Shown piece by piece: positions 2,259-43,126 of a stretch of 64,000 nucleotides of DNA; position 1 is the first letter of the stretch, and every line of letters starts with the position of its first letter. Both the position numbers and the translations under genes were made by a program. Source of the DNA: an uncultured Flavobacteriales bacterium (GTDB lineage: Bacteria; Bacteroidota; Bacteroidia; CAIKAF01); NCBI GenBank assembly GCA_903825395.1, contig CAIKAF010000029.1, forward strand, positions 62,001 to 126,000, in the 5' to 3' direction. The notes under the pieces are model-generated. The model was not told the DNA's origin, made no database searches, and saw only the letters and a program-made list of their open reading frames with translations.

Positions 2259-3154
2259 TGAACCGAACGTCCAACTCAACCACCAAGTCGGCCGTATTGT
2301 TTGGACTGTTCAGCAATTTGGCCTTGATAGCCATTAAAGCAGTTGCCGGCATACTTGGAAATTCATTTGCCTTGCTTGCCGATGCTGTGGAGTCTGCGAC
2401 CGATGCTCTTAGCTCCTTGTTTTTATGGCTGGGATTGCGGTATGCTCAGAGGCCTCCCGATGAAAATCATCCGTATGGGCATGGTCGCCTTGAGCCGCTC
2501 CTGACCTTTTTGGTGGTCGCCTTTTTATTGGGCTCTGCCTTGAGCATTGGAATTCAAGGATACTTTAACCTTAAAAAGCCTCAAACCTTACCCGAACCCT
2601 TTACCCTTCTGGTTTTGGTTGGAATCATTGCCTGGAAAGAAATAACATTCCACTACATTCGATTAAAGGCCAAGAAGCATCATAGCTCGGTTTTGCAGGC
2701 TGAAGCCTGGCATCACCGTTCCGATGCGCTAAGTTCATTATTTGCATTGGTAGGAATTGGTCTGGCCTGGATTCTCGGATCTGATTTTGCCTGGCTAGAT
2801 GAAGCCGCCGCCATGATTTCAGCCCTGATTTTGGTGCTGAATGCCTATCGGATTTTCCGGAAGGCATTTAGTGAAATTATGGATGAAGATGTGTACCAGC
2901 CCCTGGCCAATCGAATTCTTGAAATTGGACAGGGATTGCCTTTTATTATGGGGATTCCAACCTGCCGAATTCGAAAATTGGGAACCCGGTATTATGTCGA
3001 TTTACATATTTGGGTTGACCCTACTATGTCTGTTGCCCAAAGCCATGCTCATGCCCACGCGTTAAAGGATTGCATAATGGCTGACCAGCCCCACATTCAA
3101 GATGTTTTAATCCATGTAGAACCCTATGACAAAGAACGCAATACTCATTCCTAG
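2258..3154 (+). CDS. Cation diffusion facilitator (CDF) family metal transporter
   Basis: The 298-residue protein starts at the ATG overlapping the preceding stop (TGATG); a longer frame from 2183 would run inside the ligase gene. It has the CDF layout: TM2 carries the metal-site motif LLADAVESATDAL, TM5 carries AWHHRSDALSS (the HxxxD half of the transport site), and a His-containing cytoplasmic domain follows from about residue 205. CDF proteins export Zn2+, Fe2+ or Mn2+ by proton antiport. The substrate cannot be fixed here; the HxxxD form of TM5 is compatible with Zn or Fe. Its last 29 bp overlap the next gene, indicating translational coupling. Confidence 0.88.
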   Translation: MNRTSNSTTKSAVLFGLFSNLALIAIKAVAGILGNSFALLADAVESATDALSSLFLWLGLRYAQRPPDENHPYGHGRLEPLLTFLVVAFLLGSALSIGIQGYFNLKKPQTLPEPFTLLVLVGIIAWKEITFHYIRLKAKKHHSSVLQAEAWHHRSDALSSLFALVGIGLAWILGSDFAWLDEAAAMISALILVLNAYRIFRKAFSEIMDEDVYQPLANRILEIGQGLPFIMGIPTCRIRKLGTRYYVDLHIWVDPTMSVAQSHAHAHALKDCIMADQPHIQDVLIHVEPYDKERNTHS

Positions 3155-4151
3155 CCTTGCGCTGGCATTCATCATCAGCTCTTGTGCCAATAAAACAGAA
3201 AAGGAGTACTCCACCTATCAGGGTTATGCTCAAGGTACTACCTTTCATATTGAATTGGATGGAGATGGAGACTACTCAACCGCCATCGATTCCATTTTGC
3301 AGGATATTGACAAGGAGCTGTCGTTGTGGGACAGTGTGTCCTGGATCAGTACTTGGAACTCGGGAAATTCATCTGCAGCAATGGGTTTGCATGCCCGCCG
3401 TTGTTGGGAACTTTCTACGAAAATGCATGCCTTATCCAATGGATATTTTGACCCTAGTCTTGCCCCATTGATTCAATTTTGGGGATTTGGAAAGTCAAGC
3501 AAGGGATTTCCGGAACAGGTGGATACGCTGATGTTGAATCAAATTCGGCAACGCATTGGTTTAAATAAAGTGATTCAATACGATTCGGTTCAAGGTCGTT
3601 TACTGCCTAAGATAGCCGGAGCTCAGCTTGATTTTAATGCCATTGCGCAAGGGTATTCTGTGGATGCATTGGCCGATTTTTTCGAGCAAAAGGGGCATAA
3701 GAATTATATGATTGAGATTGGGGGAGAGGTTCGGTGCCGAGGAAAGAGTCCTCAAGGTAAATCCTGGAAAATTGGCATTGATAAACCGGTTTCCAGAAAT
3801 GAAACCAGGGCGCTGCAAGCGATTGTAGATGTGGATGGGGGCTTGGCTACCTCGGGCAGTTACCGAAAATTTTATGAGAAAGATGGCCTTCGGTACGCGC
3901 ATGTAATCAATCCAAAGACCGGATTTCCGGTGAGCCATCGATTGGTTAGTGTAACGGTGAGTGCACCCACGGCAGCTCAAGCCGATGCGCTTGCTACTGC
4001 ATTGTTGGTGATGGGGACTCAGCCGGCCATTGCATTCGCGCAGGCACACCCCAGCCTAGGTGTATTTCTCATTTACGATGAACAGGGCAGTTGGCAAACA
4101 TGGGCTTCAAAAAAAATGCAGGCTCAATTGTCCGAGCAGTTGAACAATTGA
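3126..4151 (+). CDS. apbE: FAD:protein FMN transferase (ApbE family lipoprotein)
   Basis: The 341-residue protein has a lipoprotein signal ending in SSC at Cys20, so it is probably membrane-anchored outside the cytoplasm. ApbE hallmarks are present: GGEVRCRGKSPQGKSW with the following IGIDKP, the loop GGLATSGSYRKF, HVINPKTGFPVSH, and a C-terminal DALATALLVMG that binds the metal and FAD. ApbE covalently attaches FMN to Thr/Ser of flavoproteins such as NqrB/NqrC or RnfG; no such target is visible here. It overlaps the CDF gene by 29 bp and is followed 11 nt later by repeat copy A. Confidence 0.9.
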   Translation: MTKNAILIPSLALAFIISSCANKTEKEYSTYQGYAQGTTFHIELDGDGDYSTAIDSILQDIDKELSLWDSVSWISTWNSGNSSAAMGLHARRCWELSTKMHALSNGYFDPSLAPLIQFWGFGKSSKGFPEQVDTLMLNQIRQRIGLNKVIQYDSVQGRLLPKIAGAQLDFNAIAQGYSVDALADFFEQKGHKNYMIEIGGEVRCRGKSPQGKSWKIGIDKPVSRNETRALQAIVDVDGGLATSGSYRKFYEKDGLRYAHVINPKTGFPVSHRLVSVTVSAPTAAQADALATALLVMGTQPAIAFAQAHPSLGVFLIYDEQGSWQTWASKKMQAQLSEQLNN

Positions 4152-38473: not shown

Positions 38474-39085
38474 TTATCGGACGCGGAGTGTAAACATGGT
38501 TTTACCTTGCAGACTTCCTTTTAATTCATCTCCCGATTCAACCCGGCCAACTCCGGCAGGGGTTCCGGTAAAAATAACATCTCCCATTTTTAAACTAAAA
38601 TACCGGCTGATGTAGGAAATCAGTTTGGGGATGCTGTGCAACATCTGTGCACTGTGCCCAATTTGTACCGATTGTCCATTTTTAAGCAATTCAAATTCAA
38701 GATTTTGAACATCTTGGAATTCTGATAATGGCATAAAATCGCCCAAATAGGCCGAGCCATCAAATGCCTTTGCCTTTTCCCAGGGAAGCCCCTTCGCTTT
38801 GAGCTGGGCTTGCAAATCGCGTGCCGTAAAATCAATTCCGAGCCCTATTTCAGAGATGTACCGAAAAGCGAACTCTTCATCGATGCACTTGCCATTTCTG
38901 CCAATTTTCAGAAGGAGCTCACATTCATAGTGAATATCAGATGAAAAGGCGGGAATAATGAACGGATTATTGCGTTGCATTACCGCCGAATCGGGCTTCA
39001 TAAATAGTACAGGTTCTTCAGGCACTTCATTGCCCAGTTCCTGAGCATGGTCGGCATAATTTCTTCCTACACAAATAATTTTCAT
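38474..39085 (-). CDS. Fumarylacetoacetate hydrolase-family protein (FAHD1-like)
   Basis: The 203-residue protein matches the short FAH fold: MKIICVGRNYADHAQELGNE, IHYECELLLKIG (Glu pair), GLGIDFTARDLQ (Asp; metal triad), KAFDGSAYLGDF and DVIFTGTPAGVG. Short members are acylpyruvases or oxaloacetate decarboxylases rather than true tyrosine-pathway FAH, although hmgA-hppD elsewhere in the window could use a fumarylacetoacetase. It lies 11 bp after a tiny membrane gene and the NSS transporter, so the three are probably one transcript. Confidence 0.85.
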   Translation of the reverse strand: MKIICVGRNYADHAQELGNEVPEEPVLFMKPDSAVMQRNNPFIIPAFSSDIHYECELLLKIGRNGKCIDEEFAFRYISEIGLGIDFTARDLQAQLKAKGLPWEKAKAFDGSAYLGDFMPLSEFQDVQNLEFELLKNGQSVQIGHSAQMLHSIPKLISYISRYFSLKMGDVIFTGTPAGVGRVESGDELKGSLQGKTMFTLRVR

Positions 39086-39096
39086 TTTATAGCCCT

Positions 39097-39201
39097 TTAC
39101 TTGTTGTTTGGTTTTTTAAGAACTTTCCAAAAAAAGTACACAGTAAAACCAATAACAATAGATTGGGCAATTAGACAAGTAATTAATGCAGCGCGGTTCA
39201 T
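39097..39201 (-). CDS. 34-residue membrane protein, MetS-like small subunit of the NSS transporter
   Basis: I found this frame by translating the gap between the transporter and the FAH gene. It begins with an ATG that overlaps the transporter stop (ATGA) and ends TAA. The product starts MNRAALITCLIAQ, has one hydrophobic helix of about 20 residues (including SIVIGFTVYFFWK) and a basic tail VLKKPNNK. This size, topology, and gene position match the MetS family of small subunits for NSS methionine/alanine importers, first described in Corynebacterium (MetPS). The match is by architecture; I cannot run a search. Confidence 0.72.
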   Translation of the reverse strand: MNRAALITCLIAQSIVIGFTVYFFWKVLKKPNNK

Positions 39202-41177
39202 GCGGGATTTTTTTTGCGTTTTAAATAGGCCAAGTACACTAGAAAAGAAATACCGGCAAATAAAATAATCAATAGGGTTCTGCCGATATTCAATAGGAGA
39301 AGGTGCTCTCGGCGCAGAGCAATTTCATGCTCTACCTGTTCCGCCTCCAGCGTTAAACCCAATGAAGACAGATTGGCTAGTTTCAGTTCTAGGGCGGTTA
39401 ATTCGGCCTTTTCGCTTGCGTTTACGCCCTTTTTCAACAGGCTATTGTTGTCTAAATTCCAACCCTTTCCTGAAAATAGATTTGAAAATTCGAGCGACCA
39501 ATTTTGAGATTCCTCTACTCGATACTCTTCTTTCTTCAATTCAGGAGCGTAGGTTCCGGCCCAAGTACGCAAGGCCCCAATGCTAGGGAAACGCTGTTTG
39601 AACTCTGTTTTAGGAAGCTTGCCGCTGAGGCGATTCCCATGTTGTTTTACGTCTTGAAACCCTTGGTCTTGCAACACAGTGCTCAAATAAAGGGCATGAT
39701 CCTTGTTTTTTGCATGAATGTGCAGCACAGAGCTGCTGGGTGGAGTAATCAAGGCTCCGATGAAAACAGCCAGTAGCATTACCGGAGTTACATAGCGAAT
39801 GATATACTTGAAAATTATGGGAATTTTCATGTCTGATCCCAGGTTGATTTCTTCCCAGCCTTTATGAATGCCAAAAATCCAAGAAAATAAAATGGTTTCT
39901 GCTAAAGCAAAAAAGACCAATCCTACGGTTCCTGCCCAGTAATCGTATTCATCAAAAATGGGTTGAGTCAAAAACACGATTTTTCCTTGGCTGTCATAGT
40001 CAACAACATATCCCAACACAGTAGGCAATCCAAACATTAAAACAATCAATCCAAAGCTCAAGGCCGCTTTTTTATGAGGTACCTTAAATTCGTCTTTCAA
40101 AAAACCAATCCAAGGTGTTCCCATGGCAAGTGAGGAGGTAATACCGGCAAAAAACAACAATCCAAACCAAAAAAATCCGGCAAACTTGGCCACAATTGGT
40201 CCCCATTGTTGGAATAAATAAGGCATGGTTTGAAATGCCATTCCGAATCCGGCATTATCAATAACCCAATCAATGCCCAAATACCCTGCCGCAATGGGAA
40301 TCACAATCATGCTGCCCAAAACCACTTCTACAAATTCATTTGTAAATCCAGATGTTGTGGCATTTAGAGCAATATCGCCTTTGGATTCAACATAACTGGC
40401 ATAGCAATGAATCGTTCCCATTCCCAACGATAAGGTGAAGAAGATTTGTCCGGCGGCTGCCAGCCACACTTTTGGATTGGCAAGGGAATCAAATTGGGGC
40501 GTCCATAAAAAATTAATCCCATCCCAAGCATTGGCATCTGGAACAGCAGCTGAAGCCCCTTCAGTACCTAAGGTTAATCCACGAACCGCGAGGATTAATC
40601 CGAAAAATATGAGCATGGGTACTCCGATTTTTGCCACTTTTTCTATTCCAGATAGGCCGGTAGATAAAATATAGGTGTTTAAGCCCAGGCAAAGCAGGAA
40701 AAATACCACACCCTCATAGGGGATTCCGGTTGAACTTTGGCCGGCATCAATGTATTTCAAAAAGAAATATGCCGATTCCGATTGAGACAATTCGGCAAAT
40801 GTTCCAACCACAGAATGATACATGTATGACAGCGTCCATGACTCAATATAGCAGTAGTAACAGGCAACGGCGACATTGGTGAAAATTCCGAAAACGCCAA
40901 TGTATTTCCATAAAGCACGTTTTCCTAAGGAATCAAAAATAAACGGCGTACTGTGGTTTCCTTTTCGACCTCCATGCCTGCCCATGGCCCATTCAATCCA
41001 CAACAAAGGGATTCCCATCAGTAAAAAACAAATCAAATACGGGATAATAAAGGCTCCGCCGCCATTTTGCACGGCTTGCACCGGAAAGCGCAAAAAGTTC
41101 CCCAAGCCAACGGCATTCCCAGCCATTGCAAGAATAAGACCTAAGCGCGAGCCCCATTTTTCTTTTTCTATCGACAT
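39198..41177 (-). CDS. Sodium-dependent NSS-family amino-acid transporter with C-terminal insertion
   Basis: The 659-residue protein begins with the NSS signature: WGSRLGLILAMAGNAVGLGN, then FLRFPVQAVQNGGGAFIIPY and LLWIEWAMGRHGG. These unwound-TM1 residues bind Na+ and substrate. Around eleven helices are followed by a soluble stretch of roughly 130-150 residues (with HIHAKNKDHALYLSTVLQDQ and coiled-coil-like KAELTALELKLANLSSL) before a last helix near the end (TLLIILFAGISFLVYLAYL). Most NSS proteins lack such a segment. The stop overlaps the MetS-like start. Confidence 0.87.
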   Translation of the reverse strand: MSIEKEKWGSRLGLILAMAGNAVGLGNFLRFPVQAVQNGGGAFIIPYLICFLLMGIPLLWIEWAMGRHGGRKGNHSTPFIFDSLGKRALWKYIGVFGIFTNVAVACYYCYIESWTLSYMYHSVVGTFAELSQSESAYFFLKYIDAGQSSTGIPYEGVVFFLLCLGLNTYILSTGLSGIEKVAKIGVPMLIFFGLILAVRGLTLGTEGASAAVPDANAWDGINFLWTPQFDSLANPKVWLAAAGQIFFTLSLGMGTIHCYASYVESKGDIALNATTSGFTNEFVEVVLGSMIVIPIAAGYLGIDWVIDNAGFGMAFQTMPYLFQQWGPIVAKFAGFFWFGLLFFAGITSSLAMGTPWIGFLKDEFKVPHKKAALSFGLIVLMFGLPTVLGYVVDYDSQGKIVFLTQPIFDEYDYWAGTVGLVFFALAETILFSWIFGIHKGWEEINLGSDMKIPIIFKYIIRYVTPVMLLAVFIGALITPPSSSVLHIHAKNKDHALYLSTVLQDQGFQDVKQHGNRLSGKLPKTEFKQRFPSIGALRTWAGTYAPELKKEEYRVEESQNWSLEFSNLFSGKGWNLDNNSLLKKGVNASEKAELTALELKLANLSSLGLTLEAEQVEHEIALRREHLLLLNIGRTLLIILFAGISFLVYLAYLKRKKNPA

Positions 41178-41396: not shown

Positions 41397-41765
41397 TCAT
41401 TTTTTGGGGTGTTGCATCAAACCTTGAAGGGCAGTGATTTCCGTCGTTAAATCCGCTTGTATTTCCTCCAATCCCTCTTTTAGAGCATGGATTTTGGTTA
41501 GATCTGAAGGATTTTCTTGCAGTTCAACCTGCAATGCTGAAATTCGTTGAGCCATCGAATCATAGCCCAAGGTTCTCAATCCTGAGAGCCATCGGTGCTG
41601 TATGTGAAAAATCCCTTTGACATTGGCCTCGCTCAAGCATTGATGCCAATCAGGTAATGTTTTATCCCATTCTTCTTTGAATCGGTATAATAAGCGCAAT
41701 ACAATAGTCAAATCTCCAGAAAATGATTTGAATAATGGGTTGTGGGGCTGGGCAAAGCGACTCAT
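41397..41765 (-). CDS. Hpt-like histidine phosphotransfer protein (candidate)
   Basis: The 122-residue all-helical protein has the motif HRWLSGLRTLGYD. Its His-to-Gly spacing (ten residues) and following helix (SMAQRISALQVEL) line up with Hpt phospho-His motifs of the type H-x-L-K-G-S-x4-G. The Lys normally present after His is missing (Leu). It is encoded 2 bp after a response regulator gene, which fits a phosphorelay partner. It could also be an unrelated helical protein; no other hallmark was seen. Confidence 0.5.
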   Translation of the reverse strand: MSRFAQPHNPLFKSFSGDLTIVLRLLYRFKEEWDKTLPDWHQCLSEANVKGIFHIQHRWLSGLRTLGYDSMAQRISALQVELQENPSDLTKIHALKEGLEEIQADLTTEITALQGLMQHPKK

Positions 41766-41767
41766 AC

Positions 41768-43126
41768 CTATTCCCGCTCACGCTTTAACATATTGTAGAT
41801 GCTGCTTTTAGAAATCTGCAGCTTATCTGCTACCAAAATGACCTTATGCTCATATTTTTCCAAGAAAAAATGAATGATTTCATTTTGATACTCTTCCATG
41901 GTTTTGTCTGTATTAAACCACAGCCGCTCTTGTCCGTTTATACCTTGAATCACAACATCATCGGCCTCGATTTCCTGATTTTTCGAAAGTACAACAGCCA
42001 TGTCGATTATGGCTTTCAGCTCCTTTAAATTTCCAGGAAATGTATGCTTCATCAATTTATCAATAGCCTTTTTAGTTAGGCGGGGTTGATGTATGTGCCC
42101 TTGGGTTGCCGATTGCTGTAAAAACAAATTCGAGAGCAATATAATGTCTTCTTTCCGTTGAAGCAATGCCGGCAATTCAATCCGTATTTCCATTAATGAA
42201 AACATCAAATATGCTCGGTCGGGATTGCTTTTTAACCATAAATCGGAATTTAGGTGGCTTGTGAATATCCATTTGCCCTTTACTTCGAATTTGTAGTTGC
42301 TGCCTTTGGCATAAAAATGCCGGCTTCGTTTGATTTGGGTGAGTCGCTCCAGAATAGTATGACTTAACCGATCAAAATGTTCAATTACAAGCGTTCCTTT
42401 TCCCACTTGAACCAACAGCCCGGTTTCCCGTTGAATACCTAAAGAGGTGATGTGTTCCGTTCCAAAAAGTACTTTTTCGATTTGCTCCTCATTCAATCCG
42501 ATGGGGCTAAAAATGAGGAATGGCTGTGTGGCAGTTCCAGCGTATTGATGTATGTATTTGGCCAATGTTTTCTTTCCGGAACCCGATGGCCCGCAAATCA
42601 ATATCCCTGAATCTCGCTTAGCAGCTTTTTCCGCTATGCTTTTGGCTCTTTTAATGTTGGCATCGTTCCCAATAAATGGGACGGGCTGAACGGATTGCAG
42701 CAATTGCTCTTTTAACCGCCGGTTTTCTTGTTCTAATTTGACTTCCTTAATTAAGTTCTTAACGATATTCCAAAGCCGGTCACGGGTTTGTTCGTTTTTC
42801 ACCAAATAATCGTAGGCTCCATGCTTGAGTAAATCAACGGCAGTTTCAATGTCTTCCTGAGCTGAAACTACAGCAACTTTGGCGGTTTGGTTTTTTTCTA
42901 AAATGAACCTTAGTGCATCTTTCCCTCCCATATCGGGCAAGCGGTAATCTAAGGTGATGAGGGAGGGGTTTTGGCCCAAGGCATCAATGCAGGCCTGAGC
43001 TTTTCCAAAGCGATGGACTTCAACGTTGGGGAACAGCTGAATCGAAGCTTCCAGAAATTCTCCATACCAAGGATCGTCTTCTACAATAAAAATTCGAAAC
43101 GGTTCTTCATTCATAAGCGTACCCAT
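41768..43126 (-). CDS. NtrC-like response regulator with degenerate AAA+ domain
   Basis: The 452-residue protein has a receiver domain (IFIVEDDPWYG; phospho-site DYRLPDMGG; KHGAYDYLVK), a AAA+-like domain and a C-terminal Fis-type helix-turn-helix (ILVADKLQISKSSIYNMLKR). Walker A is recognisable (GPSGSGKKTLAKYI). The GAFTGA loop that contacts sigma-54 is absent: after VLFGTEHIT comes SLGIQRETG. Walker B reads GTLVIEHFDRLS, with the Asp-Glu pair changed. The arginine finger region (AYLMFSLMEIRI) also differs. It is probably not a classical sigma-54 activator; it may act as a DNA-binding response regulator. The start may be 43114 instead. Confidence 0.8.
   Translation of the reverse strand: MGTLMNEEPFRIFIVEDDPWYGEFLEASIQLFPNVEVHRFGKAQACIDALGQNPSLITLDYRLPDMGGKDALRFILEKNQTAKVAVVSAQEDIETAVDLLKHGAYDYLVKNEQTRDRLWNIVKNLIKEVKLEQENRRLKEQLLQSVQPVPFIGNDANIKRAKSIAEKAAKRDSGILICGPSGSGKKTLAKYIHQYAGTATQPFLIFSPIGLNEEQIEKVLFGTEHITSLGIQRETGLLVQVGKGTLVIEHFDRLSHTILERLTQIKRSRHFYAKGSNYKFEVKGKWIFTSHLNSDLWLKSNPDRAYLMFSLMEIRIELPALLQRKEDIILLSNLFLQQSATQGHIHQPRLTKKAIDKLMKHTFPGNLKELKAIIDMAVVLSKNQEIEADDVVIQGINGQERLWFNTDKTMEEYQNEIIHFFLEKYEHKVILVADKLQISKSSIYNMLKRERE

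Follow-up and report, generated by a model that had tools for sequence, protein, structure and literature searches.

We find that a 34-codon open reading frame in the 64,000-nucleotide window (the whole stretch of Flavobacteriales DNA analysed here) is likely to encode the second, single-helix subunit of a two-component Na+/amino-acid symporter of the LeuT type. The frame opens with ATG (39201..39097, reverse strand) and its translation is MNRAALITCLIAQSIVIGFTVYFFWKVLKKPNNK; the start codon (39201-39199) and the TGA that ends the NSS transporter gene (39200-39198) have the four letters ATGA in common, as a sequence-only reading of this DNA had correctly pointed out, and the FAH-family gene starts at 39085, leaving a gap of 11 bp. 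The small protein comprises one helix (residues 6-24, mean hydropathy 2.07) and a C-terminus that reads WKVLKKPNNK. Neither Pfam nor NCBIfam has a noteworthy match for it, and a search of the genome returned no second significant copy of its gene. The features of the locus are collected in Table 1. Upstream of the transporter gene, at 41397-43126 on the same strand, the window also encodes an Hpt-like protein (PF01627, a weak match) and an NtrC-like sigma-54 response regulator.

Table 1. Features of the NSS/small-gene locus, in window coordinates
Feature	Positions	Strand	Basis
Probable small-subunit gene (LeuT-clade NSS small protein), 34 aa, single helix	39097..39201	-	ORF and translation, homologues, pN/pS
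LeuT-like Na+-coupled NSS transporter, 659 aa	39198..41177	-	PF00209 E 1.8e-52; best PDB relatives are LeuT
ATGA stop/start overlap of the NSS and small genes	39198..39201	-	Sequence; same -4 overlap in 19/26 related loci
Expanded EL6, TM11-TM12, NSS residues about 480-625	39303..39740	-	Alignment, hydropathy, TM12 match to LeuT 485-508
FAH-family enzyme gene, 11 bp downstream of the small gene	38474..39085	-	PF01557 E 1.1e-49, PRK10691-like; neighbours in relatives

By comparative sequence analysis, the small ORF is confirmed as a genuine gene under purifying selection. With the 34-aa protein alone as the query, 25 matches at E < 0.03 were obtained among 100 relatives, every one of them directly behind an NSS gene, and the -4 overlap is common to 19 of the 26 adjacent NSS/small-gene cases in relatives. 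The frame is intact beside NSS genes in close relatives, where disruption was looked for and not seen, and pN/pS within the window's genus is 0.11-0.32. The adjacency (25/25) and the pN/pS values bear out the proposal of the sequence-only reading that a hidden 34-residue membrane protein is coupled to the NSS transporter, and its remark that the gene lies below the usual annotation limits holds as well, the frame having only 34 codons. That reading had also described one hydrophobic helix with a basic tail. The helix stands; the tail proves to be a shortened form, a local reduction seen in part of the window's genus, and most homologues have a longer acidic one (for example, PPKPEPDSFSENDDEPR). 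The Bacteroidota members follow the pattern MNTSALIxMxxTQxxVxxxTxYFFxKVLKTPPKPEPDSFSENDD. Judged by their sequences, the small proteins are a wide family of 29-60 aa with a single helix, and this family is conserved, little described, and missed by current annotation models. A literature search, which had most subscription journals outside its scope, found no report of a small subunit of LeuT-clade NSS.

The transporter that precedes the small gene resembles LeuT closely. In a PDB comparison, LeuT entries match the window NSS at E values of about 1e-117 and the next bacterial NSS, MhsT, at 2.7e-39; identity to Aquifex LeuT is 51% across 444 aligned residues. The ligands of the Na1 and Na2 sites are all identical in the two proteins, the R30/D404 gate residues of LeuT are kept, and among the S1 substrate-site residues checked the window NSS differs only at F259 (M253) and I359 (M352). 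With LeuT of Aquifex aeolicus (PDB 2a65 and others) as its closest solved relative, both Na+ sites conserved, and a clean E-value gap to other NSS, the window protein belongs to the LeuT clade; as a query it has a single match in the window genome. Except for the F259M and I359M replacements the LeuT substrate site is retained, which makes a hydrophobic amino acid the probable substrate. Besides these two replacements, the window NSS differs from LeuT in its expanded EL6 (about 150 residues), which varies in length and sequence among Bacteroidota relatives and which, if LeuT topology applies, would lie on the periplasmic side. The gene arrangement differs too: leuT has no adjacent small gene, the copy in A. 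aeolicus VF5 being unlinked.

From the nearby FAH-family gene the sequence-only reading had suggested that import and breakdown of an amino or keto acid are linked. This suggestion fails on wider comparison, in which an FAH gene follows 9 loci in two genera of the window's family only, the window's own and one related to it. We tried and rejected the NSS/small gene/FAH arrangement as a general catabolic operon; FAH was found in none of the other loci examined.

The association of the small protein with LeuT-clade NSS is strongly supported by the genome sequences compared. In a set of 395 genomes from the window's phylum, all 51 with a LeuT-clade NSS (E <= 5e-112, clearly set off from the next NSS at 3e-52) have the small gene, versus 1 of the 344 without such an NSS; the threshold for the small gene in the 51 genomes was E <= 1.5e-4, and the single exception is a weak partial match. 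Linked copies are present in 45 of the 51, and the other 6 have unlinked copies only. Fisher's test gives 9e-64 for this co-occurrence, a value that ignores the relatedness of the genomes and is inflated by it, and some seeds of the small-protein model came from genomes tested. Several families include genomes that have the two genes alongside genomes that lack the two, and the pattern is therefore not that of one clade counted repeatedly.

The association extends well beyond this phylum. A LeuT-led NSS alignment, searched with NSS sequences only and no small proteins, gave 80 LeuT-clade loci in bacterial and archaeal genomes. In 56 of these, an ORF for a single-helix protein of 29-60 aa sits at the NSS stop; in 2 loci the small protein is fused to the NSS, and in 2 its gene lies a few hundred bases off. 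These loci span Aquificota, Thermodesulfobacteria, Dadabacteria, Ignavibacteria, Omnitrophota, WOR-3, Gemmatimonadota, and others, and Acetoanaerobium (Bacillota) has the small gene as well. The multi-phylum consensus, MxxxGWIFMxxSWxxIxxLxxFCFxKIL, aligns with the window family at an hhalign probability of 98.9 (E 1e-17; trimmed score 65.4, shuffle maximum 31.2). Unlinked small genes are present in 12 of the 17 genomes that have no local copy; the other 5, mostly MAGs for which incompleteness is possible, gave no match anywhere. When the neighbours of the unlinked genes were compared, no constant gene emerged; three of these small genes (L290, L291, and L293) have nearby, on the opposite strand, what by eye appears to be a phosphofructokinase gene, probably through local synteny. 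Copy number also varies: a Hydrothermota MAG (L160) has two tandem small-subunit genes behind one LeuT-type NSS (NSS stop at 2695), and another genome (G342) has three copies, two of them away from any NSS.

Natural fusions join the two proteins in a single chain. A small-protein profile search of the Aminicenantes class placed the small protein in one open frame with the N-terminus of a LeuT-type NSS in 25 of 29 loci, and a 26th in-frame locus runs off its stretch; a Fibrobacter MAG (L180) has a fusion without an internal methionine. The AF2 model of a fusion (pTM 0.91) gives pLDDT values of 89-93 for the small helix and below 50 at linker residues 34-41, and all 50 matches listed in a comparison of this model with the PDB are LeuT entries or LeuT variants. 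The fusion alignment excludes the free small proteins, which MAFFT placed away from the N-terminus. Mean-field DCA (143 pairs, Neff 91) returned top intra-NSS pairs unlike contacts, and the inter-protein pairs were discarded.

A two-subunit NSS transporter has been described in Corynebacterium glutamicum, where MetPS is presented as such a member of the family (PMC3219685) and where MetS completes MetP (Trotschel et al. 2008, PubMed 18991398, as cited in PMC2807442 and PMC3219685). The sequence-only reading had likened the window protein, in architecture and position, to the MetS-type small subunits that MetP needs, which is right as to kind. Like MetS, it is a tiny single-helix protein whose gene directly follows that of an NSS (with ATGA in the window and adjacency in 25/25 cases in relatives), and profile comparison supports the view that the window family and MetS are distant homologues: hhalign relates the family to Bacteroidota MetS at a probability of 96.4 (E 1.1e-9), trimmed profiles score 38.4, where 150 column shuffles reach at most 24.3, and the window protein scores 19.1 bits with a Bacteroidota MetS HMM, the decoy maximum being 5.6. 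The wider LeuT-clade small-protein set is borderline against MetS, at 28.9 with a null maximum of 30.7. As to family, the comparison does not hold in the form given, for the MetS models PF16951 and NF033493 find no match in the window protein, the IVWGG helix motif is absent from it and its family, and its partner is not MetP-like.

A stronger version of the MetS assignment, in which the small protein would be a true family member with the identical function of a methionine/alanine import subunit, is quite improbable. It can draw on the profile homology above the shuffle null, on matches of 17 of 43 family members to NF033493 at E < 1 (best 5e-4), and on two Aquificales relatives that exceed the NF033493 cut-off (26.2 and 25.9 versus 25). 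However, the window protein scores under all MetS model cut-offs, as do nearly all of the relatives tested: none of 40 relatives is above that of PF16951, no LeuT-clade small protein tested passes PF16951 or NF033494, and no member tested reaches the 70-bit MetS equivalog cut-off. The motifs differ as well, with G(W)IFM..SW or ALIxM...YFFxKVLK in the window and LeuT-clade family and IVWGG in MetS. Proteins of the canonical MetS-like form, with IVWGG, do occur in the window's phylum (7 of 296 genomes over the NF033493 cut-off), and their genes adjoin different NSS genes that share about 27-34% identity with that of the window, whereas the window family has a LeuT-clade partner, many phyla, and natural fusions.

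We weigh the subunit reading against three further explanations. That the ORF is a chance frame or an artefact could be argued from its mere 34 codons, under the usual annotation limits, but the pN/pS of 0.11-0.32 and the conservation of start, position, and sequence over phyla already refute this, and we give it practically no credence. A regulatory or inhibitory helix that adjusts the transporter or shuts it off, in the manner of small regulators of some other pumps, is a more serious contender, in keeping with the single helix and its fast-changing cytoplasmic tail, with the unlinked copies in Aquificales and Ignavibacteria, which would permit separate control, and with the two or three copies of some genomes; we nevertheless hold it to be unlikely, because permanent fusion to the NSS through much of the Aminicenantes class and the dominance of the -4 overlap favour a constant 1:1 part, and because the small protein is kept in almost all LeuT-clade genomes. 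It is very improbable that the protein has its function in another process and stays with LeuT-type genes through operon inertia: its gene does lie behind tyrS in Aquifex and beside other genes in other Aquificaceae, and the unlinked copies have no constant neighbour, but the co-occurrence persists when the genes are unlinked, and fusions to the NSS exist.

On the preferred reading, the small protein would be a dedicated subunit for the assembly, stability, or turnover of LeuT-type transporters. Its helix would sit in the membrane N-out/C-in, given the short N-terminus, the basic residues after the helix, and the fusion to the cytoplasmic N-terminus of LeuT, and it may pack on the lipid-facing side of the NSS. 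Coupled translation would supply one partner for each transporter. The most likely role, by analogy with MetS of MetPS, would be to stabilise or complete the transporter, with the helix needed for full activity or turnover, and regulation may reside in the variable cytoplasmic tail. The helix might act in folding, in the formation of oligomers, or in the transport cycle.

The pairing appears to include LeuT itself. Across 101 genomes of the Aquifex order, the small gene is present in 48 of the 50 whose LeuT reaches about 53% identity or more (one of the 48 being a weak partial match, G670, E 2.3e-4), and 20 of the 47 placed small genes are unlinked. In the genome of A. aeolicus VF5, whose LeuT ORF agrees with the PDB sequence at 464/464 positions, the unlinked copy lies 13 bp behind tyrS and encodes a 51-aa protein, MKGEALIFMLFSWLLICSLSTFCFTMLLTHQEKPSEKRETFISEEEREEIT. 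This protein scores 44.8 bits (decoy maximum 6.9) with a model that lacks the Aquificota-type MKG/MDG and LNT-G sequences and 25.7 bits versus a decoy value of 9.8 with the Bacteroidota-phylum model, and its C-terminal EEREEIT is shared by relatives whose genes are linked to LeuT-type ones. The VF5 protein falls outside the NCBIfam and Pfam families. A PDB sequence search with the small family matched no chain, and LeuT structures are not known to contain such a small subunit. LeuT, MhsT, and Tyt1 bind or transport without an added partner, and the subunit is therefore not strictly required in vitro. On balance, we lean toward LeuT being a two-subunit transporter with the unlinked 51-aa protein of VF5 as its partner, in which case its structures and its slow in vitro transport would describe it without its natural second subunit.

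Clades of the same order in which the small gene is lacking count against the subunit reading and would be natural controls. The small gene occurs in 0 of 16 Aquifex-order genomes of a clade whose LeuT-like proteins are 46-48% identical to LeuT, and it is missing from 4 of the 7 with an insert-bearing LeuT. LeuT homologues with an insert (L345, L346, and L347) are 615-629 aa long, and their large insertion falls near LeuT residue 220, in the EL3 region. In the 46-48% clade, the gene of a 430-aa protein comes next at -4 in 4 of the 6 loci read (L338, at 2802-4091, L339, L341, and L343); the L338 protein, the sole one scanned, has a CBS domain (PF00571 E 2.4e-6), and the 430-aa protein may be a regulatory partner of another kind.

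The SLC6 transporters, which carry serotonin, dopamine, GABA, and amino acids, have LeuT as their reference structure. Among the human members, B0AT1 (SLC6A19) and SIT1 (SLC6A20) rely on an ancillary membrane protein, ACE2 or collectrin (PMC10491607). The two cases are alike in joining an SLC6-fold transporter to an ancillary membrane protein; ACE2/collectrin differs in being eukaryotic, in its large ectodomain and membrane-trafficking role, and in contacting the extracellular end of TM7, and there is no known sequence relation. The small subunit would be a bacterial counterpart of the dependence of human B0AT1 and SIT1 on an ancillary protein and, if the LeuT clade does have a dedicated subunit, the oligomeric state, lipid contacts, kinetics, and slow turnover of LeuT would call for re-examination in the presence of the partner.
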